A DNA stretch of 64,000 nt from Williamsia phyllosphaerae (lineage in GTDB: Bacteria > Actinomycetota > Actinomycetes > Mycobacteriales > Mycobacteriaceae), in assembly GCF_014635305.1 (NCBI RefSeq), contig NZ_BMCS01000002.1:372001-436000 (forward strand), given 5' to 3'. The notes below the pieces were generated by a model that saw only the letters and a program-made list of their open reading frames with translations, did no database searches and was not told the DNA's origin. Each line of letters starts with the position of its first letter. Within the stretch, counting starts at the first letter, position 1. Both the position numbers and the translations under genes were made by a program. Shown here in pieces: positions 5,380 to 22,860 of this stretch.

Positions 5380-5461
5380 CGTGGACCCGGATTCGACGTG
5401 ATCGGCATGTGTTCGATAGTCGACCATCGCCCGGCGTTGCACCAAACCGTCGACCGTTCCC

Positions 5462-5467
5462 TACGAT
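5462..5467 (+). promoter_or_regulatory. -10 element (TACGAT) of the amino-acid ABC operon
   Basis: TACGAT ends 7 nt before the ATG at 5475, and no Shine-Dalgarno sequence is present. This is the arrangement expected for a leaderless actinobacterial mRNA that begins at the start codon. Confidence 0.5.
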
Positions 5468-5474
5468 CTGGCAG

Positions 5475-6353
5475 ATGACGATCTCGACCTCTCGCGGCCT
5501 GGCCGCCATCGCCGTGCTGGCCCTCGCCCTGACAGCCGCCTGCGCACCCACCTCCGACTCCGACGGCGGATCCGCCTCCGGCGCGGCGTCGGCGTCGTTG
5601 TCGGAGTGCGAGCCCGCCACCCTGCCGGTCGTGGCCAAGGGAACGCTGACCGTGGCCACCGACGACCCGGCGTACGAGCCGTGGTTCAGCGACAACGACC
5701 CCACCAACGGCAAGGGCTTCGAGTCGGCGGTGGCCTACGCCGTGGCCGACAAGCTCGGATTCACCAAGAATCAGGTCAAGTGGACCAAGGCGGGGTTCAA
5801 CCAGGTGATCCAGCCCGGCAAGAAGAACTTCGACTTCGACATCAACCAGTTCTCGATCTCCGCGCAGCGGGCCAAGGCCGTGGACTTCTCGAGCCCGTAC
5901 TACTCGGCCTCGCAGGCGATCATCACACTCGCGGACTCACCGTTCGCGGGTGCGACGTCACTCGCCGACCTCAAGGGCGCGAAACTCGGTGCGCAGATCG
6001 CCACCACCTCGCTCACCGCGATCGATCAGATCGCACCGACCACCGCGCCGCTGGTCTACGACGACACCTCCAAGGCCGGCCAGGCCCTGCAGAACAAGCA
6101 GGTCGACGCGATCGTCGCCGACCTGCCGACCGCGTACTACCTGACGTCCGCGGAGATCACCGGCGGCAAGATCGTCGGCGAGTTCCAGCCGACGAAGGGT
6201 GAGCAGGAACGGTTCGGACTGTTGCTGTCGAAGGGCAGCGCGCTCACTCCGTGCGTCAACGCAGCGGTCGACTCGTTGAACTCCGACGGCACCCTGACCG
6301 ATCTCCAGAACGAGTGGTTGACCCGGGCGACCAGCGTTCCCGAACTGAAGTGA
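5475..6353 (+). CDS. Amino-acid ABC transporter substrate-binding lipoprotein
   Basis: This 292-residue protein carries a lipoprotein signal peptide with lipobox LTAAC (Cys23), so the mature protein is anchored outside the membrane. The rest is a family-3 bacterial solute-binding domain, with TVATDDPAYEPWF near the N-terminus and a motif resembling FDFDINQFSISAQRAKAVDF in the middle, typical of polar amino-acid receptors (GlnH/FliY type). It is the first gene of a tightly overlapping operon: its TGA overlaps the GTG of the permease. The substrate is probably a polar or charged amino acid or derivative. Confidence 0.93.
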   Translation: MTISTSRGLAAIAVLALALTAACAPTSDSDGGSASGAASASLSECEPATLPVVAKGTLTVATDDPAYEPWFSDNDPTNGKGFESAVAYAVADKLGFTKNQVKWTKAGFNQVIQPGKKNFDFDINQFSISAQRAKAVDFSSPYYSASQAIITLADSPFAGATSLADLKGAKLGAQIATTSLTAIDQIAPTTAPLVYDDTSKAGQALQNKQVDAIVADLPTAYYLTSAEITGGKIVGEFQPTKGEQERFGLLLSKGSALTPCVNAAVDSLNSDGTLTDLQNEWLTRATSVPELK

Positions 6354-7198
6354 CCTCCCGCGCGACGCCGCTGAGCGAACGCCAACTCGAGCGGCAGCGG
6401 TACCGGCGTCGCCGGACGCGGACGCGGGCCGCCATCGCCGCGGTCTCGACGGTCGTCGTGCTCGGCCTCGTCATCGCGGTCGTGATCTCCTCCCCGGGCT
6501 GGGACCGGGTGCACGCCACGTTCTTCGACTGGCACGACGCGAAAGGGTCGTTCCCCGACGTCGCGAAGTCGTTCTGGCTCAACATCCGTCTGTTCCTCGT
6601 CGTCGAGGTCTTCGTCCTCGTGCTCGGTCTCGTCGTCGCGATCATCCGGGTCATCCCCAGCCCCGCGCTCGCGCCGGTCAAACTGGTGGCGGTGCTCTAC
6701 ACCGACATCTTCCGTGGCACCCCAACACTTCTCATCGTCCTGCTGGTCGGTTTCGGTGTGCCCGCGCTCGAGTTGAGCGGCTTGCCGACGAGCCTGTTCT
6801 GGCTCGGCGTCATCGCACTGACGCTGAGTTACGGCGCGTACGTCGCCGAGGTCATCCGCGCGGGCATCCTGTCGGTGCACCCGTCCCAGTGGGCGAGCGG
6901 TCGCGCGATCGGCCTGTCCTACGGCAAGACCCTGCGGCACGTGATCCTGCCGCAGGCGTTGCGACGGGTCGCTCCCCCGCTGCTCAACGACTTCGTGTCG
7001 CTGCAGAAAGACACCGCGCTGCTGTCGACGATCGGGCTGGTGGAGTCGTTGCGCGCGGCCCAGGTGATCTCCGGTCGCGATTTCGTCTTCACCCCGTACG
7101 TCGTCGCTGCGTGCTTCTTCATCGTCGCCACGATCCCCCTCGCCCGTCTCACCGACTATCTGACGGTGCGTTCGATGCGCCGCGAGAGCGGGTTCTGA
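6350..7198 (+). CDS. Amino-acid ABC transporter permease
   Basis: The 282-residue inner-membrane permease belongs to the HisM/GlnP (polar amino-acid) family. It has a basic cytoplasmic N-terminus, about five or six helices, and the EAA-type loop near residues 185-205 (ending IGLSYGKTLRHVILPQALRR) that contacts the ATPase. The GTG start overlaps the binding-protein stop (GTGA), and the stop overlaps the ATPase start (ATGA), so translation is coupled. There is a single permease gene, which would form a homodimer, as in other three-gene importers. Confidence 0.93.
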   Translation: MTSRATPLSERQLERQRYRRRRTRTRAAIAAVSTVVVLGLVIAVVISSPGWDRVHATFFDWHDAKGSFPDVAKSFWLNIRLFLVVEVFVLVLGLVVAIIRVIPSPALAPVKLVAVLYTDIFRGTPTLLIVLLVGFGVPALELSGLPTSLFWLGVIALTLSYGAYVAEVIRAGILSVHPSQWASGRAIGLSYGKTLRHVILPQALRRVAPPLLNDFVSLQKDTALLSTIGLVESLRAAQVISGRDFVFTPYVVAACFFIVATIPLARLTDYLTVRSMRRESGF

Positions 7199-7962
7199 TG
7201 ACCGCGACCGGGAAAGACGCGACCTCGGCGACCGAGCTGCTCCGCGCCGTGGCGATCCGCAAGTCGTTCGGCGGCAACGACGTCCTGCGCGGTATCGACC
7301 TCACCGTCGGGCAGGGCGAGGTCGTCTGCCTGATCGGCGCGTCCGGATCGGGCAAGTCGACGCTGTTGCGCTGCCTCGACCTGTTGGAGGTCCTCGACGA
7401 CGGTGACATCTGGCTCGACGGGCGCGAGATCACCGATCCGCGTGTCGACGTCGACGAGGTACGGCGTTCGATCGGGATCGTCTTCCAGGCCTACAACCTG
7501 TTCCCGCACCTGTCGGTGCTGCGCAACCTCACCCTCGGACCGGTCAAGGCTCGCGGGATCTCCGGTGCCGACGCCCGTGCCCGAGCGCACGCCCTGCTCG
7601 AGCGGGTCGGGCTGTCGGAGAAGTCCGGCGCGTACCCGGACTCGCTGTCGGGTGGTCAGCAGCAGCGGGTCGCACTCGCCCGCGCGATCGCGATGGACCC
7701 GCAGGTGTTGTTGCTCGACGAGATCACCTCGGCGCTCGACCCGATGCTCGTCGGCGAGGTGCTCGACGTCATCAGGGGTCTGCGGGCCGACGGGATGACG
7801 ATCGTGATGGCCACCCACGAGATGACATTCGCCCGCGAGGTTGCCGACCGCATCGTGTTCATGGCCGACGGCCGGATCGAGGAGTCCGGTCCGCCGGAGC
7901 AGATCTTCACCGCGCCGAGCAGTCCACGCACCGCGGAGTTCCTCGCCCGACACCTTGGCTGA
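7198..7962 (+). CDS. Amino-acid ABC transporter ATP-binding protein
   Basis: The 254-residue ATPase energises the importer encoded just upstream. Walker A is GASGSGKST (about residues 47-55), the Q-loop is in IVFQAYNLFPHLSV, the ABC signature is LSGGQQQR, Walker B is VLLLDEITSALD and the switch histidine is in ATHEMTF. These are hallmarks of the GlnQ/HisP group. The D-loop region reads DEITSALDP rather than the usual DEPTSALDP, a small deviation. The ATG overlaps the permease stop by 4 nt. Confidence 0.95.
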   Translation: MTATGKDATSATELLRAVAIRKSFGGNDVLRGIDLTVGQGEVVCLIGASGSGKSTLLRCLDLLEVLDDGDIWLDGREITDPRVDVDEVRRSIGIVFQAYNLFPHLSVLRNLTLGPVKARGISGADARARAHALLERVGLSEKSGAYPDSLSGGQQQRVALARAIAMDPQVLLLDEITSALDPMLVGEVLDVIRGLRADGMTIVMATHEMTFAREVADRIVFMADGRIEESGPPEQIFTAPSSPRTAEFLARHLG

Positions 7963-7980: not shown

Positions 7981-8550
7981 TCACGAGGACGCGTCGGCCG
8001 GTCGGTCGAGCTGCAGGATGTGGTGCGCGGGGTCGTCGATCGGGTTGTCGGGCACGAGATCTCCGCTGGCGACGATGCGGAAGCCCGCCTTCTCCAGAGC
8101 CCGCCACGACCGGCGGTTCGCGGCCACCACGGGAACCAGCAACGTCTGGGCGTCGCCGTACCGGTCGAAGGTGTCGGCGCTGACCGAAGCGATGATCACC
8201 GGACCGAGTCCGCGTCCGATCAGCTCCGGGACCCCGATCAGGTAGTCGATGGTGTACGCGGTCGGAGGCACCGCTCCGATGACCGGCTCGAACTCGTGCA
8301 GGTACTCGGGGTAGTCGGCGATCCGGCACCGCTGGACCAGACCGACCGGTGTCCCGGCGACGAGCACGACGAGGTTGTCGCCGGGTTCGGCGCCGTCGAT
8401 CCCCGGCCCGAAATCGCGTTCCAGCGCGGCGCCGTCGAACTCCTGATGCCACCACCGCGCGACGTCGGGGGTCGCCAGCCAGCGGGCGAGCAACTCGAAG
8501 TCGTCGCGTGTCAGCGGGCGGAATCCGATGTCGGGGTGTGCGATCACCAT
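7981..8550 (-). CDS. GNAT acetyltransferase of the AAC(6')-like family
   Basis: The 189-residue protein has the GNAT fold, with the acetyl-CoA loop at GRGLGPVIIASV and a C-terminal NRRSWRALEKAGF segment. The N-terminal VARWWHQEF and the YTIDYLIG strand resemble aminoglycoside 6'-N-acetyltransferases and their chromosomal relatives (PF13523-type). Similar genes occur in many soil actinobacteria and often have other acceptors, so drug resistance should not be assumed. The start overlaps the patatin stop: ATG 8550 is annotated, but GTG 8547, which forms a GTGA overlap with better ribosome-binding spacing, is an equally good choice. It is co-transcribed with patatin. Confidence 0.85.
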   Translation of the reverse strand: MVIAHPDIGFRPLTRDDFELLARWLATPDVARWWHQEFDGAALERDFGPGIDGAEPGDNLVVLVAGTPVGLVQRCRIADYPEYLHEFEPVIGAVPPTAYTIDYLIGVPELIGRGLGPVIIASVSADTFDRYGDAQTLLVPVVAANRRSWRALEKAGFRIVASGDLVPDNPIDDPAHHILQLDRPADASS

Positions 8551-9557
8551 CTCCGGGATTGTTGCTCGTCGAGCGCGTGCTCGGTGAGCGATCGACCGAG
8601 TTCGATCATCTCCGTCGCCCGGTGGAAATCCAGGCTGCGGATGGCGGTGCGCGGCACCTCGATCAGCACGTCCGGCGGGAACGCGGCCAGCTGATAGCGG
8701 GCCAGCGCCTCCTGCATGATGTCGAGCGAGCGGTCCATGATCGTGAAACGACTGAGCTTGCGCAGGGCCGAGTCGTCGGACGGCGAGGCGATGACGCGGG
8801 ACTCCTGATCGGAGGTCTCCGCGACCGCGGCCACGCCGTCGGGATCCACCTCGGAGGCGTCCTCCGCGCCCGGGTCGCCGGCGAACCGGTCGACGATGGA
8901 CTTGACGAAGTTCTGTTCCAGCAACGGCGACGCGGTCCGTCGGATCATGTCCATCGCGCCGGGTACCACGTGGGCCGATTCGTGGCTCTCGGCGTCGATC
9001 CCACCGGTGTCCGCACCGAGGTCGACGCCGATGATCAGGTCGGCGCCGGCCGCGGCCAGGGGCGCGATCGGTACCGGGTCGAGGATGCCGCCGTCGACCA
9101 GGACGCGACCGTTCAGGACGAACGGGGTGATGACCCCGGGGATGGCGATCGATGCGCGGATCGCGGTGTCCACCGGCCCGCGTTGGAACCACTTCGCACG
9201 GCCCGCGGTGAGGTCGGTGGCGACCGCGGTGAACGGGATCGGGAGGTCCTCGATCTGCACCTCACCCAGGATCTCGCGCACCTTGTCGAGGATCTTGGCG
9301 GCGTGGATGACCCCGGGCGCCGACAGTGAGACGTCCATCAACCGCACCACGTCGAGCTGGTTCAGCCCGGTGACCCAGGACGTGTACTCCTCGAGTCGGC
9401 CGGCGGCGTGCAGGCCCGCGATGAGGGCGCCCATCGAGGATCCGGCGATGCCGACGATCTCGTAGCCGCGTTCCTCCAGCACCTGCAGGACACCGATGTG
9501 GGCGTACCCCCTGGCACCGCCACTGCCGAGCGCCACCGCAACGGTTGTTGTGCTCAC
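8544..9557 (-). CDS. Patatin-like phospholipase/esterase
   Basis: The 337-residue protein is a RssA-type patatin lipase. The oxyanion loop GSGGARGYAHIG (residues 11-22), the nucleophile elbow GSSMG (39-43, Ser41) and the DGG motif (155-157, Asp155) form the complete Ser-Asp dyad. About 120 residues follow the catalytic core, including an acidic stretch of unknown role. No signal peptide is visible, so it acts in the cytoplasm or at the inner membrane face. I start it at GTG 9557, directly before the first beta-strand. It shares an operon with the GNAT gene. Confidence 0.9.
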   Translation of the reverse strand: MSTTTVAVALGSGGARGYAHIGVLQVLEERGYEIVGIAGSSMGALIAGLHAAGRLEEYTSWVTGLNQLDVVRLMDVSLSAPGVIHAAKILDKVREILGEVQIEDLPIPFTAVATDLTAGRAKWFQRGPVDTAIRASIAIPGVITPFVLNGRVLVDGGILDPVPIAPLAAAGADLIIGVDLGADTGGIDAESHESAHVVPGAMDMIRRTASPLLEQNFVKSIVDRFAGDPGAEDASEVDPDGVAAVAETSDQESRVIASPSDDSALRKLSRFTIMDRSLDIMQEALARYQLAAFPPDVLIEVPRTAIRSLDFHRATEMIELGRSLTEHALDEQQSRRW

Positions 9558-9670
9558 GCCGTCCAGCGTACGAGCCGTCACCTCGCAGCGGTTCCGTGGG
9601 CACACCACATCGACTTCCCAGGCGAGCCGGACACGCTGGCCGCACCGACCACGTGTGAAAGAGGAATTCG

Positions 9671-10594: not shown

Positions 10595-10684
10595 TCCGCT
10601 GACCCGGGCCCACCACCGCGAGGGCGGCGATCGTTTTACCCGAATGCAATGCCGCAGAAACGCGTCTGGGCGCAGAATCTGGGG

Positions 10685-11530
10685 ATGAACGAGCAGACCG
10701 TCCGTGCCGCGATCGTCCAGACCTCGTGGACCGGTGACCGCGAGACGATGATCGCCGCGCACATCGACTACGCACGGGAGGCGGCGCTGCAGGGCGCGCA
10801 GATCATCGGCTTCCAGGAGGTGTTCGACGCGCCCTACTTCTGCCAGGTGCAGGAGGAGAAGTACTACGCCTTCGCCGAGGAGATCCCCGGTCCGACCACC
10901 GACACGTTCTGCGACCTAGCGCGCGAGCTGTCGATGGTGATGGTGGTCCCGATCTACGAACGCGAGCAGGGCGGGTTCCTTTACAACACCGCGGTGGTCA
11001 TCGACGCCGACGGGACGCTGCTCGGGAGATACCGCAAACACCACATCCCGCAGCTGCCCGGCTTCTGGGAGAAGTTCTACTTCCGCCCCGGCAACCTCGG
11101 ATGGCCGGTGTTCGACACCGCCGTCGGCAAGGTAGGTGTCTACATCTGTTACGACCGCCATTTCCCCGAGGGCTGGCGCGCACTCGGTCTCGCGGGTGCG
11201 CAGATCGTCTACAACCCCTCGGCCACCAGCCGCGGCCTCTCGAGCTACCTGTGGAAGCTCGAACAGCCCGCATCGGCCGTCGCCAACGAGTACTTCGTCG
11301 CCGCGATCAACCGCGTCGGCGTCGAGGCGGAGTACGGCGACAACGACTTCTACGGCACCAGCTACTTCGTCGACCCCGAGGGCAAATTCGTGGGCGAGGT
11401 GGGTTCCGACACCGACCCCGAACTCATCGTCCGCGACCTCGACCTGGGTCTCATCGAAACGGTGCGCAATCGGTGGGCGTTCTACCGCGACCGCCGCCCG
11501 GACGCCTACGGCCCGCTCACCGCACCCTGA
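10685..11530 (+). CDS. Carbon-nitrogen hydrolase, probable beta-ureidopropionase / N-carbamoyl amidohydrolase
   Basis: The 281-residue nitrilase-superfamily enzyme has the full catalytic triad: Glu45 (GFQEVF), Lys118 (RYRKHHIPQ) and Cys155 (ICYDRHFPE). The fold and the HIPQLPGFWEKFYFRPG segment resemble beta-ureidopropionase and N-carbamoylputrescine amidase. The next gene, 32 nt downstream, is a dihydropyrimidinase, which favours hydrolysis of N-carbamoyl-beta-alanine to beta-alanine, CO2 and ammonia in reductive pyrimidine breakdown. I chose ATG 10685 from the family N-terminus; an in-frame ATG at 10649 would add 12 residues. Confidence 0.92.
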   Translation: MNEQTVRAAIVQTSWTGDRETMIAAHIDYAREAALQGAQIIGFQEVFDAPYFCQVQEEKYYAFAEEIPGPTTDTFCDLARELSMVMVVPIYEREQGGFLYNTAVVIDADGTLLGRYRKHHIPQLPGFWEKFYFRPGNLGWPVFDTAVGKVGVYICYDRHFPEGWRALGLAGAQIVYNPSATSRGLSSYLWKLEQPASAVANEYFVAAINRVGVEAEYGDNDFYGTSYFVDPEGKFVGEVGSDTDPELIVRDLDLGLIETVRNRWAFYRDRRPDAYGPLTAP

Positions 11531-11562
11531 CGTCCGCTCTCCTCGATCGAAGGGACACCGAA

Positions 11563-12984
11563 GTGTCGACGACGTTCATCCACGGCGGAACGGTGGTGTC
11601 GACCACCGGTGCCCAACCCCTCGACGTCCTGATCTCCGACGAGACGATAGTCGCGGTCATCGCGCCCGGATCCACCGTTCTCGGAGCGGATCTCGCGGCG
11701 AGCGCGGATCACACCATCGACGCGACCGGGCGCTACGTGATCCCCGGTGGCATCGACGCGCACACGCACATGGAGATGCCGTTCGGTGGCACCTTCGCCT
11801 CCGACACCTTCGAGACCGGGACCCGTGCCGCGGCGTGGGGTGGCACGACGACCATCATCGACTTCGCCGTGCAGAACCCGGGGATGCGGTTGCAGGACAC
11901 CGTCGCCGCGTGGCACGAGAAGGCCGCGGGCAACTGTGCCGTCGACTACGGCTTCCACCAGATCATCGGCGGCGTCGACACCGACTCACTCAAGGCGATG
12001 TCCGAACTCGTCGCCGAGGGCATCACCAGCTTCAAGCTGTTCATGGCCTACCCGGGGGTCTTCTACTCCACCGACGGCCAGATCCTGCAGGCCATGCAGT
12101 TCGCGGCCGAACTCGGCGCGCTGATGATGATGCACGCGGAGAACGGGATAGCGATCGACGTCTTGGTCGAGCAGGCCCTCGCCCGTGGTGACACCGATCC
12201 GATCTTCCACGGCACATCACGCGCATGGCAGATGGAGGAGGAGGCCACGCACCGGGCGATCATGCTGGCGCATCTGACCAAGGCGCCGCTCTACGTCGTA
12301 CACGTCTCGGCCAAGCAGGCCCTCGAACAGATCGCGACGGCACGGGGCAACGGGCAGAACGTGTTCGCCGAGACGTGCCCGCAATATCTGTACCTGTCCC
12401 TCGAGGAGCAGCTCGGCGCACCGGGTTTCGAGGGCGCCAAATGGGTCTGCTCGACCCCGCTGCGCCCACGCGCGGAGGGTCACCAGGACGAACTGTGGCG
12501 CTACATCCGCACCGGCGACGTGACGACGGTGGCCACCGACCACTGTCCGTTCTGCATGAAGGACCAGAAGGACATGGGCGTGGGGAACTTCGCGAAGATC
12601 CCGAACGGTATCGGGTCGGTGGAACACCGGATCGACCTGATGTTCCAGGGCGTCAAGGACGGCAAGATCTCGCTCGAACGCTGGGTGGACATCTGTTGCA
12701 CGACGCCCGCGCGCATGTTCGGGATGTACCCGCGCAAGGGCATCATCTCCCCCGGTGCCGACGCCGACATCGTCATCTACGACCCGAACGGACACACCAG
12801 CATCGGCGTCGAGAAGACCCACCACATGAACATGGACTACTCGGCCTACGAGGGCTTCGAGATCGACGGCCACGTCGACACCGTCATCTCGCGTGGCCGG
12901 GTCATCGTCGACGACGGCGCCTATCACGGCTCCAGGACCCATGGCTCGTTCGTCAAACGCGGCCTGTCGCAGAACCTGATCTGA
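11563..12984 (+). CDS. Dihydropyrimidinase / D-hydantoinase
   Basis: The 473-residue amidohydrolase opens the ring of dihydrouracil, dihydrothymine or hydantoins. The binuclear zinc site is complete: His67 and His69 (GIDAHTHME), the carbamylated Lys158 (SFKLFMAY), His191 (MHAENG), His247 (VVHVSA) and Asp326 (ATDHCPF). It starts at GTG 11563 with AGGGA about 9 nt upstream. Its product is the substrate of the amidohydrolase encoded just before it. A flavin/F420 oxidoreductase and an aminotransferase follow in the same operon. Confidence 0.95.
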   Translation: MSTTFIHGGTVVSTTGAQPLDVLISDETIVAVIAPGSTVLGADLAASADHTIDATGRYVIPGGIDAHTHMEMPFGGTFASDTFETGTRAAAWGGTTTIIDFAVQNPGMRLQDTVAAWHEKAAGNCAVDYGFHQIIGGVDTDSLKAMSELVAEGITSFKLFMAYPGVFYSTDGQILQAMQFAAELGALMMMHAENGIAIDVLVEQALARGDTDPIFHGTSRAWQMEEEATHRAIMLAHLTKAPLYVVHVSAKQALEQIATARGNGQNVFAETCPQYLYLSLEEQLGAPGFEGAKWVCSTPLRPRAEGHQDELWRYIRTGDVTTVATDHCPFCMKDQKDMGVGNFAKIPNGIGSVEHRIDLMFQGVKDGKISLERWVDICCTTPARMFGMYPRKGIISPGADADIVIYDPNGHTSIGVEKTHHMNMDYSAYEGFEIDGHVDTVISRGRVIVDDGAYHGSRTHGSFVKRGLSQNLI

Positions 12985-13040
12985 CGGCCGGCCGGACACG
13001 AAGCGCAGCGGAGCTGGACCAGAAGGAGGTCGGGTACATC

Positions 13041-14069
13041 ATGGATCTCGGTGTTGTGCTGCAGTGCAATCCGCCCGCGTCGGAGGTGGTCGACCTCGCC
13101 GTGCGCGCCGAACAGCTCGGGTTCAGCCACGTCTGGACGTTCGACTCCCACCTGCTGTGGCAGGAGCCGTACGTCATCCACTCGGCAATCCTCGCCGCCA
13201 CCGACCGGGTCGTCGTCGGGCCGATGGTGACCAACCCCGCGACCCGCGAACCGACGGTCACCGCGTCCACGTTCGCCACGCTCAACGAGATGTACGGCAA
13301 TCGCACCATCTGCGGCATCGGCCGGGGCGACTCCGCGGTCCGCACCCTCGACGGTCGACCGAGCACGCTCGCCACCCTGCGCGAGTCGATCCGGGTGATC
13401 CGCGCGCTGGGGAATTCCGGCGAGATGGAGATCGACGGCACCACGCTGCGGCTGCCGTGGAGTCACGGCTCCGCGCTGGAGGTCTGGGTCGCGGCCTACG
13501 GCCCGAAAGCACTCGCGCTGACCGGTGAGGTCGCCGACGGCTACATCCTGCAGCTCGGCGACCCCGACATCGCCGTGTGGATGATCGGGCAGGTGCGGGC
13601 GGCCGCCGAACGCGCAGGACGCGACCCGGCCGCCATCCGGTTCTGCGTCGCGGCACCGGCCTACGTCACCGCCGACGACTCCCCCGACTCGCTGGCCCAC
13701 GCGCGCGAGCAGTGCCGCTGGTTCGGAGGCATGGTCGGCAACCACGTCGCCGACATCGTCACCCGCTACGGCGCGACATCGGAGGTCCCCGAGGCGCTCA
13801 CCTCGTACATCGCCGGACGCACCGGCTACGACTACACCGAGCACGGCCGCGCCGGGAACAGCCACACCACCTTCGTGCCCGACGACATCGTCGACCGCTT
13901 CTGCATCATCGGTCCACCGGCCACGCACGTCGAGCGCCTCGCCGAACTCCGCGAACTCGGCGTCGACCAGTTCGCCGTCTACCTGCAGCACGACGCCAAC
14001 TCCGAGACGCTCGAGGCGTACGGCGCGCAGGTCATGCCTGCCCTGGTGCAGGGCACAATGAACACATGA
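13041..14069 (+). CDS. LLM-class F420-dependent oxidoreductase (TIGR03842-like)
   Basis: The 342-residue protein is a luciferase-like TIM barrel. The N-terminus (MDLGVVLQCNPPASEVVDLA), the CGIGRGDSAVR loop and the WVAAYGPKALALTGEVADG segment match the actinobacterial TIGR03842 group, which are predicted to use the deazaflavin F420. A near-perfect ribosome-binding site AGAAGGAGGT lies 10 nt before the ATG. It sits between dihydropyrimidinase and an aminotransferase and overlaps the latter by 4 nt, so it should work in the same pathway. Substrate and reaction direction are unknown; a pyrimidine/dihydropyrimidine redox step is a reasonable guess because no classical dehydrogenase gene is present here. 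Confidence 0.9.
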   Translation: MDLGVVLQCNPPASEVVDLAVRAEQLGFSHVWTFDSHLLWQEPYVIHSAILAATDRVVVGPMVTNPATREPTVTASTFATLNEMYGNRTICGIGRGDSAVRTLDGRPSTLATLRESIRVIRALGNSGEMEIDGTTLRLPWSHGSALEVWVAAYGPKALALTGEVADGYILQLGDPDIAVWMIGQVRAAAERAGRDPAAIRFCVAAPAYVTADDSPDSLAHAREQCRWFGGMVGNHVADIVTRYGATSEVPEALTSYIAGRTGYDYTEHGRAGNSHTTFVPDDIVDRFCIIGPPATHVERLAELRELGVDQFAVYLQHDANSETLEAYGAQVMPALVQGTMNT

Positions 14070-15436
14070 CCGACAACTCCGTCCCCACACCCGACCCCGC
14101 GACCGGAGCGCAGGTCCGCGCCGACGACCGCGCCCACGTCTTCCACTCGTGGTCGGCCCAGGCGCAGATCGACCCGCTACCGATCGCCGGCGCACAGGGC
14201 TCCTGGTTCTGGGACTACGACGGCAAACGGTATCTCGATCTCGGCTCGCAGCTCGTCAACGCCAACGCGGGCCACGGCCACCCCGCCATCGTCGACGCGA
14301 TCTGCGAACAGGCCCGGATCCTGCCGACCATCGCGCCGTCGTTCGCCAACGACAAACGCGGCGAACTGGCCCGACTCATCGCCGAACGGGCGCCGGGCGA
14401 CCTCAACAAGGTGTTCTTCACCAACGCCGGTGCCGAGGCCAACGAGCACGCGATCCGCATGGCGCGCGTGGCCACCGGCCGCTCGACGGTGCTGGCGATG
14501 TACCGCAGCTATCACGGCGCCTCGGGCACCACGATCGGGCTGACCGGCGATCCCCGTCGCTGGCGCGCCGAGCCGACGGGTAACGACGTCGCCCGGTTCT
14601 TCGGCCCGTACCCGTTCCGGTCGCCGTGGAACACCGACTCGATCGAGGCGGAGGGCGTTGCGGCACTGAATCATCTGCGACAGGTGGTCGAGCTGCAGGG
14701 CCCCGCGACCATCGCCGCGATCATCATCGAGACCGTCATCGGCACCAACGGCGTCATCGTCCCGCCGCCGGGATACCTCGCCGGTGTCCGCGCGCTGTGC
14801 GACGAGTACGGCATCGTCTACATCGCCGACGAGGTCATGGTCGGATTCGGCCGCCTCGGAGAGTGGTTCGGCGTCAACGCCTTCGACGTCACCCCGGACC
14901 TCATCACCTTCGCCAAGGGCGTCAACTCCGGCTACGTCCCGCTCGGCGGGGTCGTCATCGGGTCGCGCATCGCCGACCACTTCGCCGACACCCCCTACCC
15001 CGGCGGCCTCACCTACAGCGGGCATCCGCTGGCCTGTGCCGCGGGTGTGGCGTCGATCAAGGCCTTCGAGGCCGACGGCGTCATCGACCGGGTCCGCGCG
15101 ACCGGCGAGGACCTCATCCGCCCGACCCTGGAGAAGATCGCCGACAATCATCCGTCGGTCGGTGAGATCCGCGGTATGGGGTTCTTCTGGGCGATCGAAC
15201 TCGTCCGCAATCCCGAGACCCGCGAGGGACTGGTCCCGTTCAACGCATCCGGCGCGGCGGCGGCGCCGATGGCCGAACTCGTCGGGGCGTTCAAGGAGCG
15301 CGGGGTGTGGCCGTTCACCCACTTCAACCGCATCCATCTCGCGCCGCCGCTGGTCACCTCCGACGACGACCTCTCCCACGCGATGGGTGTCCTCGACGAG
15401 GTCCTCGACCTCGCCGACCGACACGTGGTGTCGTAG
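14066..15436 (+). CDS. Class III aminotransferase (omega-amino acid type)
   Basis: The 456-residue PLP enzyme has all class III features: the FTNAGAEANEHAIRMAR phosphate-binding stretch, Asp255 in IADEVMVGFGR and the Schiff-base Lys284 in ITFAKGVNSGY. Relatives use beta-alanine, 4-aminobutyrate, taurine or other omega-amino acids with pyruvate or 2-oxoglutarate. In this cluster the likely substrate is beta-alanine or 3-aminoisobutyrate, giving (methyl)malonate semialdehyde. The ATG overlaps the oxidoreductase stop by 4 nt. A semialdehyde dehydrogenase is not present in the window. Confidence 0.93.
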   Translation: MTDNSVPTPDPATGAQVRADDRAHVFHSWSAQAQIDPLPIAGAQGSWFWDYDGKRYLDLGSQLVNANAGHGHPAIVDAICEQARILPTIAPSFANDKRGELARLIAERAPGDLNKVFFTNAGAEANEHAIRMARVATGRSTVLAMYRSYHGASGTTIGLTGDPRRWRAEPTGNDVARFFGPYPFRSPWNTDSIEAEGVAALNHLRQVVELQGPATIAAIIIETVIGTNGVIVPPPGYLAGVRALCDEYGIVYIADEVMVGFGRLGEWFGVNAFDVTPDLITFAKGVNSGYVPLGGVVIGSRIADHFADTPYPGGLTYSGHPLACAAGVASIKAFEADGVIDRVRATGEDLIRPTLEKIADNHPSVGEIRGMGFFWAIELVRNPETREGLVPFNASGAAAAPMAELVGAFKERGVWPFTHFNRIHLAPPLVTSDDDLSHAMGVLDEVLDLADRHVVS

Positions 15437-17074: not shown

Positions 17075-17123
17075 GTAGTTGTGGTACGCTGACAATGTAG
17101 CCGCGCCCGGGGAGGAGTGCTTC

Positions 17124-18683
17124 GTGACCATCGCCGATATGCCTGACACCGATACCGTGTCTGTTCTGGAAGCGAATTACGCTGCGCTCGAACAGCTCCT
17201 AGACGAGATCGCAGCTGGCTCGTCGGATGCATGTAGCGATGCGGTGGTCGCGGAGTTGGCCGAGCGTCATGAGCGGGTGGTGCGGCGGATGGAATCGATC
17301 GGAAACCGACGGATCCTGGACGTGTCTGATCGGGAGGCCTTCCGGGTGTCGGGGTCGAAAAGCCTGACCGACTACATGTCGACCCGGTTACGGATCACCC
17401 GCCCCCGCAGACGGTTACGCGCAGTCCAACACCTCGAAGCCATGCATGCGATGACCGGCGAGAAACTCCCACCCCGCGCCCCGAACACCGCAGTAGGCCT
17501 GGCCGACGGACACCTGGGTGCCGAGCACGTCGATGCGATCCTCGACGTACTGGCCAAGGTTCCCGCCGCAGTCGACCCCGACGAGACAGCGAAAGCCGAA
17601 TCCGCGTTGGCCACCGAAGCGCGTCGGTTGACGCCGCGGGAGATCACCCAGCTCGGGGTCCGGATCCTGGCCTACCTCGACCCCGATGGCACCCTGACCG
17701 ACGACCGTGACCGCGCCCGCAACCGGAAGCTGTCATTGGGTTCTCAGGACGCGCAGCTGATGTCGACACTGTCCGGGACCCTCGACCCGACCACCCGGGC
17801 ACTGTTCGAGGTGGTGCTCGCGGCGTGGGCGGCACCCGGGATGAACAACCCCGACGACGATCAGTCTCCGCGCGGCGACACCGCCGGCATCGACCCCGAC
17901 CATCTGCGCGACGCCGCCGGCCGCGACACCCGCTCAGCGGCCCAACGCAACCACGACGCATTGAAAGCGCTGCTGCAGTGCGCGGCCGACGGCGGCCTGC
18001 TCGGTGCGTCGCATCGCGGACTGCCACCGCACATCATCATCTCGATCACCGAGAACGAACTCCGCGACCGCGCCGGCGTCGCGAACACCGCGACCGGCAC
18101 CGACCTCCCCTTCACCGACGTGCTGACGCTGGCGGCGAAAGCGCAGATGCATCTCGCGGTGTTCGACGACCACACCGCCGAACCACTGTTCCTCGGCCGC
18201 GCCCACCGCCTCGCATCCCAAGCCCAACGATTCCTGTTATTCGCGAAATACGGCGGCTGCGGGGCAGCGGACTGCCCGACCCCCTACGCGCACTGCGAAA
18301 TCCACCACGCAGAAAAAGACTGGGCCGACGGCGGCACCACCGACGCCAACCACCTCGCACCCGCATGCGGCCCCCACAACCGGGCCGTCGGCCCCAACCC
18401 CGACCAATGGACCACCGAAAAAATCACCACCGGCCCCGACCGCGGCCGATACGGCTGGCGCCGCAACACCGACCCACCCGAGGAACTCCACGCCAACCAC
18501 CGACACCACATCCGCGAACTCCTCGACCAACACGGTGACGATGACCCGTGGGTCGAGAACACATCACACGTCGAGATCCCGTTGTCGAGCATCGAGCACC
18601 GACTGGCGCTTCGACTGATCGAACGGATACCGCGGCCCACCGCAGACGTCGCCTGGCCCCGGCGCCCGGTCAGCTACATGTGA
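17124..18683 (+). CDS. DUF222 / HNH endonuclease protein (13E12 repeat family)
   Basis: The 519-residue protein has an N-terminal DUF222 domain (about residues 10-330) and a C-terminal HNH domain (about 375-430). The HNH domain shows CGAADCPTPYAHCEIHH, then a HLAPACGPHNRAV segment with the zinc-ligand cysteines and the catalytic-type histidines. The family is the 13E12 repeat family of mycobacteria, present in many copies in mycolic-acid actinobacteria; its role is unsettled. The GTG start has GGGGAGGAG about 6 nt upstream. A perfect SOS box and a long inverted repeat precede it, so it is probably LexA-repressed. Codon use changes to very C-rich in the last third, as often seen in these recombining genes. 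Confidence 0.92.
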   Translation: MTIADMPDTDTVSVLEANYAALEQLLDEIAAGSSDACSDAVVAELAERHERVVRRMESIGNRRILDVSDREAFRVSGSKSLTDYMSTRLRITRPRRRLRAVQHLEAMHAMTGEKLPPRAPNTAVGLADGHLGAEHVDAILDVLAKVPAAVDPDETAKAESALATEARRLTPREITQLGVRILAYLDPDGTLTDDRDRARNRKLSLGSQDAQLMSTLSGTLDPTTRALFEVVLAAWAAPGMNNPDDDQSPRGDTAGIDPDHLRDAAGRDTRSAAQRNHDALKALLQCAADGGLLGASHRGLPPHIIISITENELRDRAGVANTATGTDLPFTDVLTLAAKAQMHLAVFDDHTAEPLFLGRAHRLASQAQRFLLFAKYGGCGAADCPTPYAHCEIHHAEKDWADGGTTDANHLAPACGPHNRAVGPNPDQWTTEKITTGPDRGRYGWRRNTDPPEELHANHRHHIRELLDQHGDDDPWVENTSHVEIPLSSIEHRLALRLIERIPRPTADVAWPRRPVSYM

Positions 18684-18753: not shown

Positions 18754-20115
18754 GTGACTGATCTCCAGACCCCCGCGGTGAGTGTCGCCGCGCGTCTCGA
18801 CCGCCTGCCGATCGTGCGCGCGCACTGGGTGGCCACCGGCGTCATCGGCCTCGGCCTGTTCTTCGACCTCTACGAGAACTTCCTGGCCGCGACCATCTCG
18901 TCGGTGCTGCGAACCGACCTCGACCTGAGCCGGACCGAGCTGAACCTGCTCCTCGGATCAGCCTTCCTGGGCCAGTTCCTCGGTGCCGCGGTGATGGGCC
19001 GATACGCCGACCGGGTGGGCCGGCGCCGCGCGTTCATGATCAACCTCGCGGTGTACTCGCTGTTCTCGCTGCTCGGCGCATTCAGCCCCAACGCGACGTT
19101 CCTGGTCGTCACCCGGTTCATCGCCGGGATTGGCATCGGAGCCGAGTTCGCACTCGCCGACTCGTACCTCTCGGACCTGCTGCCCAAGAACATGCGGGGC
19201 AAGTTCATCTCCTGGGCCTACACGGTCGCGTTCCTCGGAGTCCCCACCGTCGGCCTGCTGGCGAGGTGGCTCGTGCCCCTGGAACCGTTCGGAGTCGACG
19301 GATGGCGCTGGCTGTTCGTCTTCGGCGGGCTCGGCTCGTTCGCGGTGTGGCTGGTCCGTCGGGGCCTGCCGGAGTCACCGCGCTGGTTGGAGACGCAAGG
19401 CCGCCACGACGAGGCCGACGAGATCTGCCGTCGTTTCGAGCAGCAGGCCATCGACGCCGGCCACGTGCTGGCCGAGCCCGATCCGCACCTGACGGTCACA
19501 CCGATGAAGAAGGTCCCGCCGACCGCACTGTTCCGTGCGCCGCTGACCCGACGCACGACCATGCTCTGGATCCTGTCGGTCCTCGAGGTCTTCGGGTACT
19601 ACGGGTTCGGCACCCTCGCGCCCATCATCCTGCTGGACAAGGGGTTCGATCTCGTCACGTCGCTGGGTTTCGTCGCGGCGACCTACATCGGCTACCCACT
19701 CGGATCCGTTCTGGCCATCCCGATCGTCGAACGCATCGAGCGCAAGTGGCTGGTGATCTCCTCGGCCGGGCTGATGGCCGCGTTCGGACTCTGGTTCGGG
19801 TTCGCCGACGCCGCGTGGGCGATCGTCGTGTCCGGTGTGCTCTACACGATGGCGTCGAACCTGTTCTCCAACGCGTATCACGTGTATCTCGCCGACTCCT
19901 ACCCCACCGCGATCCGCGGAACGGCTGCGGGCGCGGCGTATTCGCTGTCGAAACTGGCCACCGGCGTCCTGCCGTTCATCCTGCTGCCGTTCCTCGACGC
20001 CAACGGGTCGGGCGCGGTGTTCGCCCTCGTCGCGGTCGCCATGGTCGCCCTGATGATCAACGTCGCGGTTCTGGGCCACCGCAGCACGGGGTTGTCCGCC
20101 GACGCGACGGTGTAG
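18754..20115 (+). CDS. MFS transporter (sugar-porter/NiaP-like)
   Basis: The 453-residue protein has 12 predicted membrane helices. The helix-1 segment GLFFDLYENFLAATISSVL, the loop MGRYADRVGRRRAF after helix 2 and the PESPRWLETQGRHDEADEI motif after helix 6 are typical of the sugar-porter and NiaP/aromatic-acid branch. In this branch an acidic residue in helix 1 usually binds the substrate. Substrates can be nicotinate, aromatic acids or polyols, and I cannot choose. It starts at GTG 18754 and appears to be a single gene. Confidence 0.9.
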   Translation: MTDLQTPAVSVAARLDRLPIVRAHWVATGVIGLGLFFDLYENFLAATISSVLRTDLDLSRTELNLLLGSAFLGQFLGAAVMGRYADRVGRRRAFMINLAVYSLFSLLGAFSPNATFLVVTRFIAGIGIGAEFALADSYLSDLLPKNMRGKFISWAYTVAFLGVPTVGLLARWLVPLEPFGVDGWRWLFVFGGLGSFAVWLVRRGLPESPRWLETQGRHDEADEICRRFEQQAIDAGHVLAEPDPHLTVTPMKKVPPTALFRAPLTRRTTMLWILSVLEVFGYYGFGTLAPIILLDKGFDLVTSLGFVAATYIGYPLGSVLAIPIVERIERKWLVISSAGLMAAFGLWFGFADAAWAIVVSGVLYTMASNLFSNAYHVYLADSYPTAIRGTAAGAAYSLSKLATGVLPFILLPFLDANGSGAVFALVAVAMVALMINVAVLGHRSTGLSADATV

Positions 20116-20565: not shown

Positions 20566-22860
20566 ATGTCGCACTGGTTCACCGAGAGATTCGTCGACAC
20601 AGGCCGACTGCCCATCTTCTTCCTGCTCGTCGCCTTCGTCCTGACGTTTCTCTTCATCCGGTTCAGCGTGCGGATGATCCGGGCCCAGGTGTCGTGGTGG
20701 CCGGGCAACGTCACCCCGGGCGGGATGCACATCCACCACGTCATCTTCGGTCTGGTGTTCATGCTGCTCTCCGGATTCGGACTCGTGGTGCTCTCCGACG
20801 AGCAGACCCCGGTGGCGAACTGCGTCCTCGCCGCGGTGTTCGGTGTCGGGACGGCGCTCGTACTCGACGAGTTCGCACTCGTGCTGCACCTGCGCGACGT
20901 CTACTGGGCCGAGGAGGGGCGCGCGTCGATCGACGCGGTGTTCGTCGCGATCGCGATCGTCGTGCTGTTCCTGTTCGGCATCCGCCCCATCGGTTTCGAC
21001 GGCGACGTCGGCGAACTCCGCGAGGACCACTCGATCGCCGCGGTCGTCGCGACGACGATCTGGTTGGCCGTCGAGCTGGGCCTCGCGGTGATCACCGTGC
21101 TCAAGGGGAAGCTGTGGACCGGGCTCGTCGGACTGTTCATCGTCCCGTTGCTGATCGTCGGCGCGATCCGTCTGAGTCGGCCCGCCGCTCCGTGGGCGCG
21201 GTGGCGATACGCCCGCAACCCGGGCAAACGGAGTCGATCGCTGGCCCGGGAGGAACGTTTCCGCGAGCCGATGGTGCGGGCGAAGATCATTGTGCAGGAG
21301 TCCATCTCCGGACGTTTCGGGTTGCCCGAGGTGACCACCCCCGCGAGCGTCGGCACGCCACCGCCGGTCCCCGCCGCCCTCGATGACTCCGCCCTCGACG
21401 GCACCACCGCACGGCCACCCCACCGACTCGCCACCGCGATCGCGTGGCAGCGCACGCGGCGGCGGCTGCGGCCGGTGCCGATCTGGCGCCTACCCCTGAT
21501 CCTGGTCGGTCTCGCGGTCATCGCGTCGGTGGCGCTCGACACCGCCGACGACCAGTTCACCGTCGACGGCATCGACGGTGGCGCCCTGGCCACCCTGCTC
21601 AGCGTCATCGCGGGCGCGATGATCACCCTCACCGCGCTGGTGTTCACCGCCATCACCCTGGCCATGCAGTTCGGGGCGACCCAGATCTCGGTGCGCGTCA
21701 TCCCGATGCTGCAGCAGGATCGCACCATGCGTGCGTCGATCGGTGTCTTCCTGGCCACGTTCGTCTTCGCGCTCGGCATAGCACTGGAGATCGCGATCGG
21801 CGGGCAGCCAGGCACCACGAAAGTCGAGGCGCCTGTGGTGTCGACGGCCATCGCGATGGTCCTGACGCTGATCAGTGCAGTCATGTTCGTGATGCTGGTC
21901 TCGAAGGTGGGCAATGTCCTCAACTCCGAACGCCTGCTGCGGTGGATCGCCGCCGAGGGTCATCGCGCGATCCTGCGGCGCTACCCCGAGGTGCCCACCG
22001 ACACCGAGACACTCGAGGAGTCGGCCGGGAACCCGACCATGTCCCAGCCGCCCGCCGACGCCGACGTCGACCCGGCGTCGGTGATCGTGGTGCGGTTGCG
22101 GCAGGTCCCCGCACACGGTCGCGTCCTGCTGGCCATCGATCTCGCACGGATCCAGCGACTGGCGACCCGCTGGGAGGTGTCGGTGGCGATCCTGCCCGCG
22201 ATCGGCGACTTCGTCCCCCACGACAGCCCGGTGTTCGAGGTCCGCGGCACCCCGACCGGGCTGGCGCCGCACCAACATCCGGCACATCAACTGCAGGGCA
22301 CACTGATCTTCGGCGACACCCACCAACCATCGGTGAGCCCGGTCGCCGCACTACAGTCCATCGTCGACGTCGCATCCAAGGCGTTGTCGACGTCGGTGAA
22401 CAACCCCGGTCTCGCGGTCCAGGCACTGAACCACCTCGAGGACCTGCTCCTCGTACTGGCACCGCGACTGCGCGCCGGCACCGCCGACGTCACGTTCTCG
22501 CGGATCACCGGATACCGACGTTCCTGGGCCGACCACGTCTCCATCGCGACCGACGAGATCCGACAGTTCAGCGGTGGATCCATGCAGGTGCAGCGCCGAC
22601 TACGGGGGTTGCTGACGACCCTGATCGACAACTGCCCGGAGGCGCAGCACCCGCCGCTGGTCGAACGACTCGCCGCACTCGACGTCCGCAGCACCACCGA
22701 GTGGGACTCCCCGCTCGACCGCCGCCTGGCGAGCGCCTCGGACTCCCAGGGGCTCGGATCGGAGTCGGGTAGCCGACGCGGACCGGCGGTGGCTCACCCC
22801 AGCAACGACTGCATCACCCCGGCCGCCTCGGCGAACCTGCTCGGATCCGAACTCCCGTAG
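20566..22860 (+). CDS. Fusion membrane protein: N-terminal multi-pass domain plus DUF2254
   Basis: The 764-residue protein has two parts. Residues ~1-210 form about six helices with a histidine cluster (GGMHIHHVIFG) on a loop after the first helix. A cytoplasmic linker (~210-300) leads to a DUF2254 domain (~305-630) with helices containing LLSVIAGAMITLTALVFTAI and a large soluble end. DUF2254 proteins are usually stand-alone and of unknown function. The last 67 nt overlap the 3' end of the convergent MocR gene, so the C-terminal ~22 codons are read in antisense. The start at ATG 20566 follows CACAGGAGACTCGCG, a good ribosome-binding site. Confidence 0.85.
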   Translation: MSHWFTERFVDTGRLPIFFLLVAFVLTFLFIRFSVRMIRAQVSWWPGNVTPGGMHIHHVIFGLVFMLLSGFGLVVLSDEQTPVANCVLAAVFGVGTALVLDEFALVLHLRDVYWAEEGRASIDAVFVAIAIVVLFLFGIRPIGFDGDVGELREDHSIAAVVATTIWLAVELGLAVITVLKGKLWTGLVGLFIVPLLIVGAIRLSRPAAPWARWRYARNPGKRSRSLAREERFREPMVRAKIIVQESISGRFGLPEVTTPASVGTPPPVPAALDDSALDGTTARPPHRLATAIAWQRTRRRLRPVPIWRLPLILVGLAVIASVALDTADDQFTVDGIDGGALATLLSVIAGAMITLTALVFTAITLAMQFGATQISVRVIPMLQQDRTMRASIGVFLATFVFALGIALEIAIGGQPGTTKVEAPVVSTAIAMVLTLISAVMFVMLVSKVGNVLNSERLLRWIAAEGHRAILRRYPEVPTDTETLEESAGNPTMSQPPADADVDPASVIVVRLRQVPAHGRVLLAIDLARIQRLATRWEVSVAILPAIGDFVPHDSPVFEVRGTPTGLAPHQHPAHQLQGTLIFGDTHQPSVSPVAALQSIVDVASKALSTSVNNPGLAVQALNHLEDLLLVLAPRLRAGTADVTFSRITGYRRSWADHVSIATDEIRQFSGGSMQVQRRLRGLLTTLIDNCPEAQHPPLVERLAALDVRSTTEWDSPLDRRLASASDSQGLGSESGSRRGPAVAHPSNDCITPAASANLLGSELP

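Follow-up and report, generated by a model that had tools for sequence, protein, structure and literature searches.

Reductive pyrimidine breakdown usually begins with a flavin/Fe-S dihydropyrimidine dehydrogenase (PreTA/PydA), and the question raised by this Williamsia phyllosphaerae locus is which enzyme would supply its dihydropyrimidinase. In the window (the whole 64,000-nt stretch of DNA analysed), a nitrilase-type gene, a dihydropyrimidinase gene, an LLM oxidoreductase gene and a class III aminotransferase gene lie almost end to end on a common strand (Table 1), bearing out the operon-like block described in an earlier, sequence-only reading. The 4-nt overlap noted there between the LLM and aminotransferase genes is exact, given that bases 14066-14069, running from the aminotransferase start to the LLM end, read ATGA. 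Directly upstream of the LLM ATG (13041) lies AGAAGGAGG, while the start at 10685 of the nitrilase-type gene is the second ATG of its ORF, with an earlier start possible at 10649.

Table 1. Coordinates of the four-gene block and of possible transport partners in the window.
Feature	Position	Strand	Evidence
Polar-amino-acid-type ABC transporter (binding protein, permease, ATPase)	5409..7962	+	PF00497, PF00528, PF00005
Nitrilase-superfamily N-carbamoyl-beta-alanine amidohydrolase (beta-ureidopropionase) candidate	10685..11530	+	PF00795, 240 bits
Dihydropyrimidinase / D-hydantoinase	11563..12984	+	TIGR02033, 553 bits
TIGR03842 LLM oxidoreductase, proposed F420H2-dependent uracil/thymine reductase	13041..14069	+	TIGR03842, 557 bits
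Class III aminotransferase, proposed beta-alanine / beta-aminoisobutyrate transaminase	14066..15436	+	NF004718, 685 bits
MFS transporter, possible uptake partner	18754..20115	+	PF07690, 167 bits

The sequence-only reading had seen no dihydropyrimidine dehydrogenase, and had named in advance a PydA/PreTA enzyme elsewhere in the genome as evidence against its proposal. The absence extends beyond the window to the whole genome, which is rated 100% complete: PreA (NF006183) found no match there at E 1e-30 or 1e-60, and the single DHO_dh protein is by family the quinone-dependent PyrD (568 bits, cut-off 433). No PreA exceeded the cut-off among 31 genomes including that of the window, with weak profile matches (111–132 bits, cut-off 335) in five of them, including the LLM genomes G019, G025 and G028. 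In a phylum sample of 198 genomes, PreA was present in one (G193), which lacks the LLM protein and groups PreT, PreA, an M20-family carbamoylase and a dihydropyrimidinase together. RutA (TIGR03612), which is FMN and O2 dependent, had no match in the window genome at E 1e-80 and exceeded the cut-off in 0/198 genomes.

The LLM protein is a clear member of TIGR03842 (cut-off 295; query taken from 13056), a family listed as a hypothetical equivalog in NCBIfam. Its nearest PDB sequence is the F420-dependent reductase Mer (1z69, E 9.8e-32), which is also its nearest solved relative in fold (Z 34–35 to the predicted model, pLDDT 87.4). The top 15 entries of the fold comparison are F420 enzymes without exception and RutA structures follow near Z 25, although the gap between rank 15 (F420) and rank 16 (FMN) is less than 1 Z and FMN enzymes use the same fold. 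Sequence and predicted fold place the LLM protein with the F420 enzymes (Mer, Adf, FGD) and away from RutA. It is unlike Mer in scoring far below the Mer family cut-off (TIGR03555, 119.4 bits against 348.7), and in an alignment of 44 LLM sequences, where 61 residues are invariant, the position of Mer Glu6 (the residue mutated in 8qq8, by the entry title) is occupied by V, T or C. A search of a phage collection with the LLM protein gave no match at E 1e-20.

Among the 198 genomes, the LLM protein is present in 45 and absent from 153. Dihydropyrimidinase accompanies it in 44 of the 45, compared to 19 of the 153 non-LLM genomes (counts that ignore kinship), and the two genes are no more than 15 kb apart in 38/45. 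Dihydropyrimidinase does not always signify the proposed pathway, since 18 of the 63 genomes that encode it have neither LLM nor PreA. We also examined 80 related loci, which were chosen as the best matches to the query and are therefore biased toward orthologues. Dihydropyrimidinase was found in 78/80, nitrilase in 73/80 and aminotransferase in 39/80, rising to 67/67 and 66/67 for the first two where more than 4 kb of upstream sequence was available; PreA, PreT, RutA and RutB were found in 0/80. In 14 LLM-bearing stretches, dihydropyrimidinase occurred in 12 and nitrilase in eight. No nitrilase was seen in G014 or G017, and the two upstream ORFs scanned for a substitute were a DNA ligase and an NCS2 symporter. 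In G017, this NCS2 nucleobase symporter (297 bits, cut-off 292; 369 bits to RutG, below the RutG cut-off) immediately precedes dihydropyrimidinase, LLM and aminotransferase genes. Both the position of the LLM gene within the cluster and the adjoining transporters vary among relatives, the latter by lineage.

The dihydropyrimidinase exceeds the TIGR02033 cut-off of 393 (query taken from 11557), matches the D-hydantoinase 4kqn at E 1.3e-138, and contains HTH, FK, HAEN and TDHC motifs. For the first gene of the block, the earlier label of "amidohydrolase" holds as to hydrolase but not in its metal-dependent sense, the family being the nitrilase superfamily. No curated equivalog reaches its cut-off for this protein (TIGR03381, 244 bits against 410). 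While an N-carbamoylputrescine amidase (5h8i, 1.8e-53) tops its list of PDB matches, near a beta-ureidopropionase-type protein (2vhh, labelled CG3027-PA, E 4.8e-53; also 8pt4 and 6ftq), we rejected that assignment because the residues following the Cys, CYDRHFP, resemble CYGRHHP of 2vhh, 8pt4 and 6ftq and not CWDQWFP of 5h8i. ICYDRHFP occurs in every relative whose alignment exceeds 200 residues (73/73), and we regard the gene as a candidate beta-ureidopropionase.

The aminotransferase is well above the NF004718/PRK06062 cut-off (472), and its nearest solved sequence is a taurine:2-oxoglutarate aminotransferase (6jix, 5.2e-111). The class III aminotransferases in G056 and G080 share an identity of only 30–32%. 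A methylmalonate semialdehyde dehydrogenase (MMSDH) is encoded in the window genome outside the block (620.6 bits, cut-off 448.5). In 22/80 related loci, a dehydrogenase 63–74% identical to a TIGR01722-scoring MMSDH (737 bits) lies within the locus itself, which points to a (methyl)malonate semialdehyde product.

The window genome encodes cofG, cofD and an F420-dependent glucose-6-phosphate dehydrogenase (FGD), each over its own cut-off. The cofG gene occurs in 39/45 LLM genomes compared to 65/153 without LLM, and cofD in five of the six cofG-less LLM genomes; G132, an assembly of 220 contigs, is the sole LLM genome without both. Seven genomes in which cofG fell short of the thresholds applied, considered as possible cases of LLM without F420 (G202, G223, G174, G178, G181, G025 and G028) were set aside, as all of them (7/7) carry cofD. 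In the available flanks, cofD was observed at 10/80 related loci against 0.34 expected, these loci being mainly from Cellulomonas and Microbacteriaceae-type relatives and not independent. In Paracoccus and Leisingera, the gene order is cofG-cofH-cofD-cofC-cofE-npdG-LLM, with an LLM gene (42% and 39% identity, respectively) last in the F420 operon and no dihydropyrimidinase within the 10 kb flanks; it is on the Paracoccus proteins that our cofG and cofH statements are based.

We therefore read the block as a reductive pyrimidine-degradation operon, at a probability of roughly two in three, in which an F420H2-dependent LLM uracil/thymine reductase would serve as a non-homologous replacement for dihydropyrimidine dehydrogenase. 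The sequence-only reading had suggested that the LLM protein, with F420, might either replace the first step or run in reverse, oxidising a dihydropyrimidine. The first alternative is supported by the lack of PreA and RutA, the F420 genes, the 44/45 link to dihydropyrimidinase and the F420-enzyme fold, while nothing was found in favour of the second. F420H2 donates its hydride at low potential (about -340 mV) and would suit a reductive step. In the proposed route, the LLM protein would convert uracil or thymine into its 5,6-dihydro form at the expense of F420H2, with FGD keeping F420 reduced. The ring would then be opened by dihydropyrimidinase (strong homology), and the nitrilase-family enzyme would release beta-alanine or beta-aminoisobutyrate by decarbamoylation (homology and motif). 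The aminotransferase would convert these to malonate or methylmalonate semialdehyde, a substrate assignment we infer alongside its homology, and a CoA-acylating semialdehyde dehydrogenase, elsewhere in the window genome and in-cluster in some other species, would carry out the last step. The use of F420 is suggested by the fold neighbours of the predicted model and the linkage to F420 genes, and it is the neighbouring genes that suggest which ring, be it uracil, thymine or a different one, would be reduced.

It is unlikely, though worth weighing, that the LLM protein is F420-dependent and feeds dihydropyrimidinase with a different reduced ring, such as a modified pyrimidine or a hydantoin-like or purine-derived compound. 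The TIGR02033 name also covers D-hydantoinase, with which most of the nearest solved relatives are labelled, the transporters beside the cluster depend on lineage, and a putative F420 luciferase-family enzyme of Chloroflexota has been proposed for yanthine reduction (PMC12507026). The beta-ureidopropionase-type residues of the nitrilase, the MMSDH-type enzyme in 22/80 loci and the uracil-permease-like neighbour in G017 instead fit uracil or thymine. It is improbable that the LLM protein works late, at the semialdehyde/amino acid end (e.g., in malonate semialdehyde reduction), with the first step left to an unrecognised enzyme or dihydropyrimidines feeding the operon. Its variable order in the cluster would permit this, and RutE (annotated as a putative malonic semialdehyde reductase) is a precedent inside a pyrimidine cluster, but 22/80 clusters already have an MMSDH-type enzyme and the link to dihydropyrimidinase (78/80) is tighter than that to aminotransferase (39/80). 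A RutA-like FMN-dependent oxygenase opening the ring oxidatively shares the superfamily, and RutA structures do appear in the fold list; this is very improbable, and we rejected it on grounds of family membership, gene partners and fold: RutA and RutB matches are missing as described above, the LLM protein resembles F420 enzymes more closely both by sequence and by fold, such a route would leave dihydropyrimidinase without a task, and some family members are flanked by F420 synthesis genes. That the LLM protein is a passenger unrelated to the block, as its abundance of relatives in the window genome (19 LLM-type matches at E 0.001) might suggest, is hardly credible given the 44/45 association, other gene orders included.

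Compared to the known reductive (Pyd/PreTA) pathway, the F420H2-dependent route proposed here would share dihydropyrimidinase, carbamoyl-beta-amino acid hydrolase, omega-amino acid transaminase and semialdehyde dehydrogenase, with an LLM/F420-type protein instead of PreT/PreA (PydA). An extended reductive pathway was reportedly described by Yin et al. in 2019. RutA shares the LLM fold and acts on uracil; unlike the LLM system, it is absent from the window genome and the 80 loci. A similar swap was proposed in 2025 for urate clusters of Chloroflexota, where an LLM protein stands before a ring-opening hydrolase in place of YgfK or the PydA homologue UacX of other bacteria (PMC12507026). Its substrate there, the purine-derived yanthine, was proposed from gene neighbourhood. 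This was also the only paper in the open-licence PMC literature to place an F420-dependent enzyme alongside uracil and dihydrouracil. TIGR03842 was named nowhere in that literature, nor was anything found that pairs F420 with pyrimidine catabolism or luciferase-like proteins with dihydropyrimidinase; subscription journals lay outside this scope and earlier publication is possible. F420 is mentioned alongside dihydropyrimidinase in PMC10117117, alongside hydantoinase in PMC11055893 and PMC4959651, and alongside pyrimidine degradation in PMC13367373. PMC8305020, where F420 occurs with hydantoinase and with pyrimidine degradation, is not relevant to the LLM question.

Uracil and thymine breakdown in many actinobacteria thus seems to rely on a small enzyme that probably uses F420, rather than on an iron-sulfur flavin enzyme. 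More broadly, we lean slightly towards the view that in Actinomycetota, and possibly in further F420-producing groups, the step of dihydropyrimidine dehydrogenase has passed, in most reductive pathways of the phylum, to an LLM uracil/thymine reductase that depends on F420H2, and that the F420 demand of this enzyme explains the adjoining F420 genes in Cellulomonas and relatives and the LLM genes ending F420 operons on Rhodobacterales plasmids. If true, this would give TIGR03842 a function, account for the PreA-free life of 44/63 dihydropyrimidinase genomes in our sample, add a dearomatising reduction to F420 chemistry, and supply a reason for F420 in lineages with F420 genes beside the LLM cluster. 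Studies of fluoropyrimidine breakdown would likewise have an interest in a uracil reductase that consists of one protein and lacks iron-sulfur clusters.

The two transporters flanking the block may be linked to it, though weakly. Between the ABC transporter and the block lies an ORF on the − strand (8544–9608, patatin-like by eye). The layout of this transporter is repeated in the same-genus genomes G003, G004 and G007, and the MFS transporter is retained downstream of the block in the same three genomes.

Four genes, separated by short spacers, occupy positions 10685–15436 of the forward strand of the window and encode a nitrilase-family hydrolase, a dihydropyrimidinase, a TIGR03842 LLM oxidoreductase and a class III aminotransferase. 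The LLM start codon (ATG) is closely preceded by AGAAGGAGG, and the end of this gene and the start of the aminotransferase gene have an ATGA in common, consistent with the operon-like block and LLM/aminotransferase overlap described in the sequence-only reading. In a family profile search, the dihydropyrimidinase, LLM and aminotransferase exceeded curated cut-offs; the nitrilase gave a strong PF00795 match and fell below the cut-off for every NCBIfam family. Three genomes of the same genus (G003, G004 and G007) keep the block, along with the ABC transporter of polar amino acid type that lies upstream of it and the MFS gene that lies downstream, and an LLM above the cut-off was present in 12 of 31 genomes compared, the window genome counted among them. 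We did note an ORF of DUF222/HNH type (judged by eye) that follows the block and precedes the MFS gene; it has the same place in G007 and was not found there in G003 or G004.

Features of the block and other stretches discussed
Sequence	Position	Strand	Feature
Window	10685–11530	+	nitrilase-family hydrolase
Window	11563–12984	+	dihydropyrimidinase
Window	13041–14069	+	TIGR03842 LLM oxidoreductase
Window	14066–15436	+	class III aminotransferase
Window	17079–18683		ORF of DUF222/HNH type (by eye)
Window	22767–24122	-	possible MocR-like regulator
L109 (genome G202)	17488–18482		LLM, in two pieces (17488–17685 and 17679–18482)

The sequence-only reading had also seen no classical dihydropyrimidine dehydrogenase, and a search of the whole window genome agreed: PreA (NF006183) had no match at E 1e-30, and the single DHO_dh protein is the quinone-dependent PyrD. 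PreA was above the cut-off in none of the 31 genomes, with weak profile matches (111–132 bits, below the cut-off) in five relatives. Across 198 genomes of the same phylum (at least 95% complete; taken as Actinomycetota, since the closest named relatives are Williamsia, Rhodococcus, Nocardia and similar genera), PreA was present only in G193, where dihydropyrimidinase is grouped with PreT, PreA and an M20-family carbamoylase and the LLM is lacking; the search control was positive in E. coli and Deinobacterium. RutA, of the oxidative route, had no match in the window genome and was above the cut-off in none of the 198, the sole near miss being a RutA-like protein in G191 (L118) narrowly under it (486 of 498 bits).

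Within this sample, 45 genomes carry the LLM, 63 dihydropyrimidinase and 44 both (Fisher p 1e-27, kinship ignored), and in 38 of the 45 the two genes lie no more than 15 kb apart on the same contig. The remaining seven comprise G171, without dihydropyrimidinase, five with the genes on separate contigs (G063, G107, G124, G132 and G157) and G069, where they are 50 kb apart. Neither LLM nor PreA was found in 18 of the 63 dihydropyrimidinase genomes (G037, G042, G047, G060, G074, G081 and 12 more).

We then compared the best 80 of 591 confirmed relatives, a set that leans towards close orthologues because only the best were taken, using tblastn at E 1e-20 for partner genes. Dihydropyrimidinase was present in 78 of these 80 loci, nitrilase in 73 and aminotransferase (at least 45% identity) in 39; PreA, PreT, RutA and RutB were each found in none. 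Rough ORF clustering of the same 80 placed the binding protein of an ABC system in 56 (it resembles NMT1/THI5 by eye and had no NCBIfam match) and a permease in 53; in 32 loci a regulator judged by eye to be MocR-like lies close to the cluster on the other strand. The reverse-strand window stretch in the table is 27% identical to this regulator and may be unrelated. A methylmalonate-semialdehyde-type dehydrogenase (MMSDH) occurs in 22 of the 80 loci, 17 times immediately before the LLM and five times 2–7 kb after it; the one profile-scanned matched TIGR01722 at 737 bits, and the others are 63–74% identical to it. Breakdown of uracil and thymine is expected to yield malonate and methylmalonate semialdehyde, and an MMSDH suits both; in the window genome such an enzyme is encoded elsewhere.

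Searching PDB sequences with the LLM returned 11 matches, ten of them F420 enzymes. Its AlphaFold model (pLDDT 87.4, 36 sequences) aligned best to Mer (Z 34–35), then to Adf and FGD (29.5–32.9); FMN monooxygenases scored from 28.6 downward, with RutA near 25. Glu6 of Mer is not conserved, and a comparison of 44 LLM sequences, the most distant 39% identical to the window protein, showed 61 invariant residues, marking a separate, tightly constrained family. Alongside the observed gene families, absences and associations, we infer its cofactor, direction and substrate, the best reading being that it transfers hydride from F420H2 to a pyrimidine: the 5,6 double bond would be reduced, and the resulting dihydropyrimidine would be opened by the neighbouring enzyme. 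The strongest competing explanation keeps this chemistry and applies it to another ring.

Among 14 LLM-bearing stretches, chosen partly for unusual appearance, nitrilase was present in eight and dihydropyrimidinase in 12. The order is LLM-nitrilase-aminotransferase-dihydropyrimidinase-MMSDH in G056 and ABC-nitrilase-aminotransferase-dihydropyrimidinase-LLM in G080, and in both the aminotransferase shares only 30–32% identity with that of the window. In G173 and G126 the LLM (44–45%) lies on the opposite strand to ABC-dihydropyrimidinase-aminotransferase, with no nitrilase match, and in G014 and G017 dihydropyrimidinase is accompanied by LLM and aminotransferase, nitrilase not being found. Directly before the dihydropyrimidinase of G017 lies a nucleobase symporter of the NCS2 family (297 bits against a cut-off of 292), a direct hint of a nucleobase substrate.

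As further indirect evidence on F420 use by the LLM, the window genome contains cofG, cofD and FGD. Overall, cofG is present in 39 of the 45 LLM genomes versus 65 of the 153 others (p 8e-8, kinship ignored), and five of the six LLM genomes without it have cofD. A cofD homologue lies in the examined flank of ten of the best 80 of 591 loci, against 0.34 expected for one gene per 4 Mb genome; these ten, one with cofE and two with cofG and cofH, are not independent, since they are drawn from Cellulomonas, Pengzhenrongella, Cryobacterium, Diaminobutyricibacter and Microcella. Twelve plasmid records also matched the LLM, ten from Leisingera. On the two examined, from Paracoccus alcaliphilus (L100) and Leisingera caerulea (L101), cofG-cofH-cofD-cofC-cofE-npdG is followed by a TIGR03842 LLM 42% and 39% identical to the window protein, respectively; dihydropyrimidinase was not found within 10 kb on either side.

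In the open-licence literature searched, we found the first step of pyrimidine breakdown assigned to neither an F420 enzyme nor an LLM enzyme. The same kind of enzyme swap has been proposed in a sister pathway: Chloroflexota urate clusters without YgfK and UacX, the latter a PydA homologue, have a putative F420 luciferase-family dehydrogenase (PMC12507026).

Two genomes of one genus rated 100% complete, G202 (L109) and G223 (L110), carry cofD on the contig that holds the LLM, at a distance of 11–12 kb, and cofG had no match in either at E 1e-50; their FO precursor may come from a divergent enzyme or from uptake. The two tblastn pieces of the G202 LLM lie in different frames, reflecting a frameshift, a sequencing error or a decaying gene.
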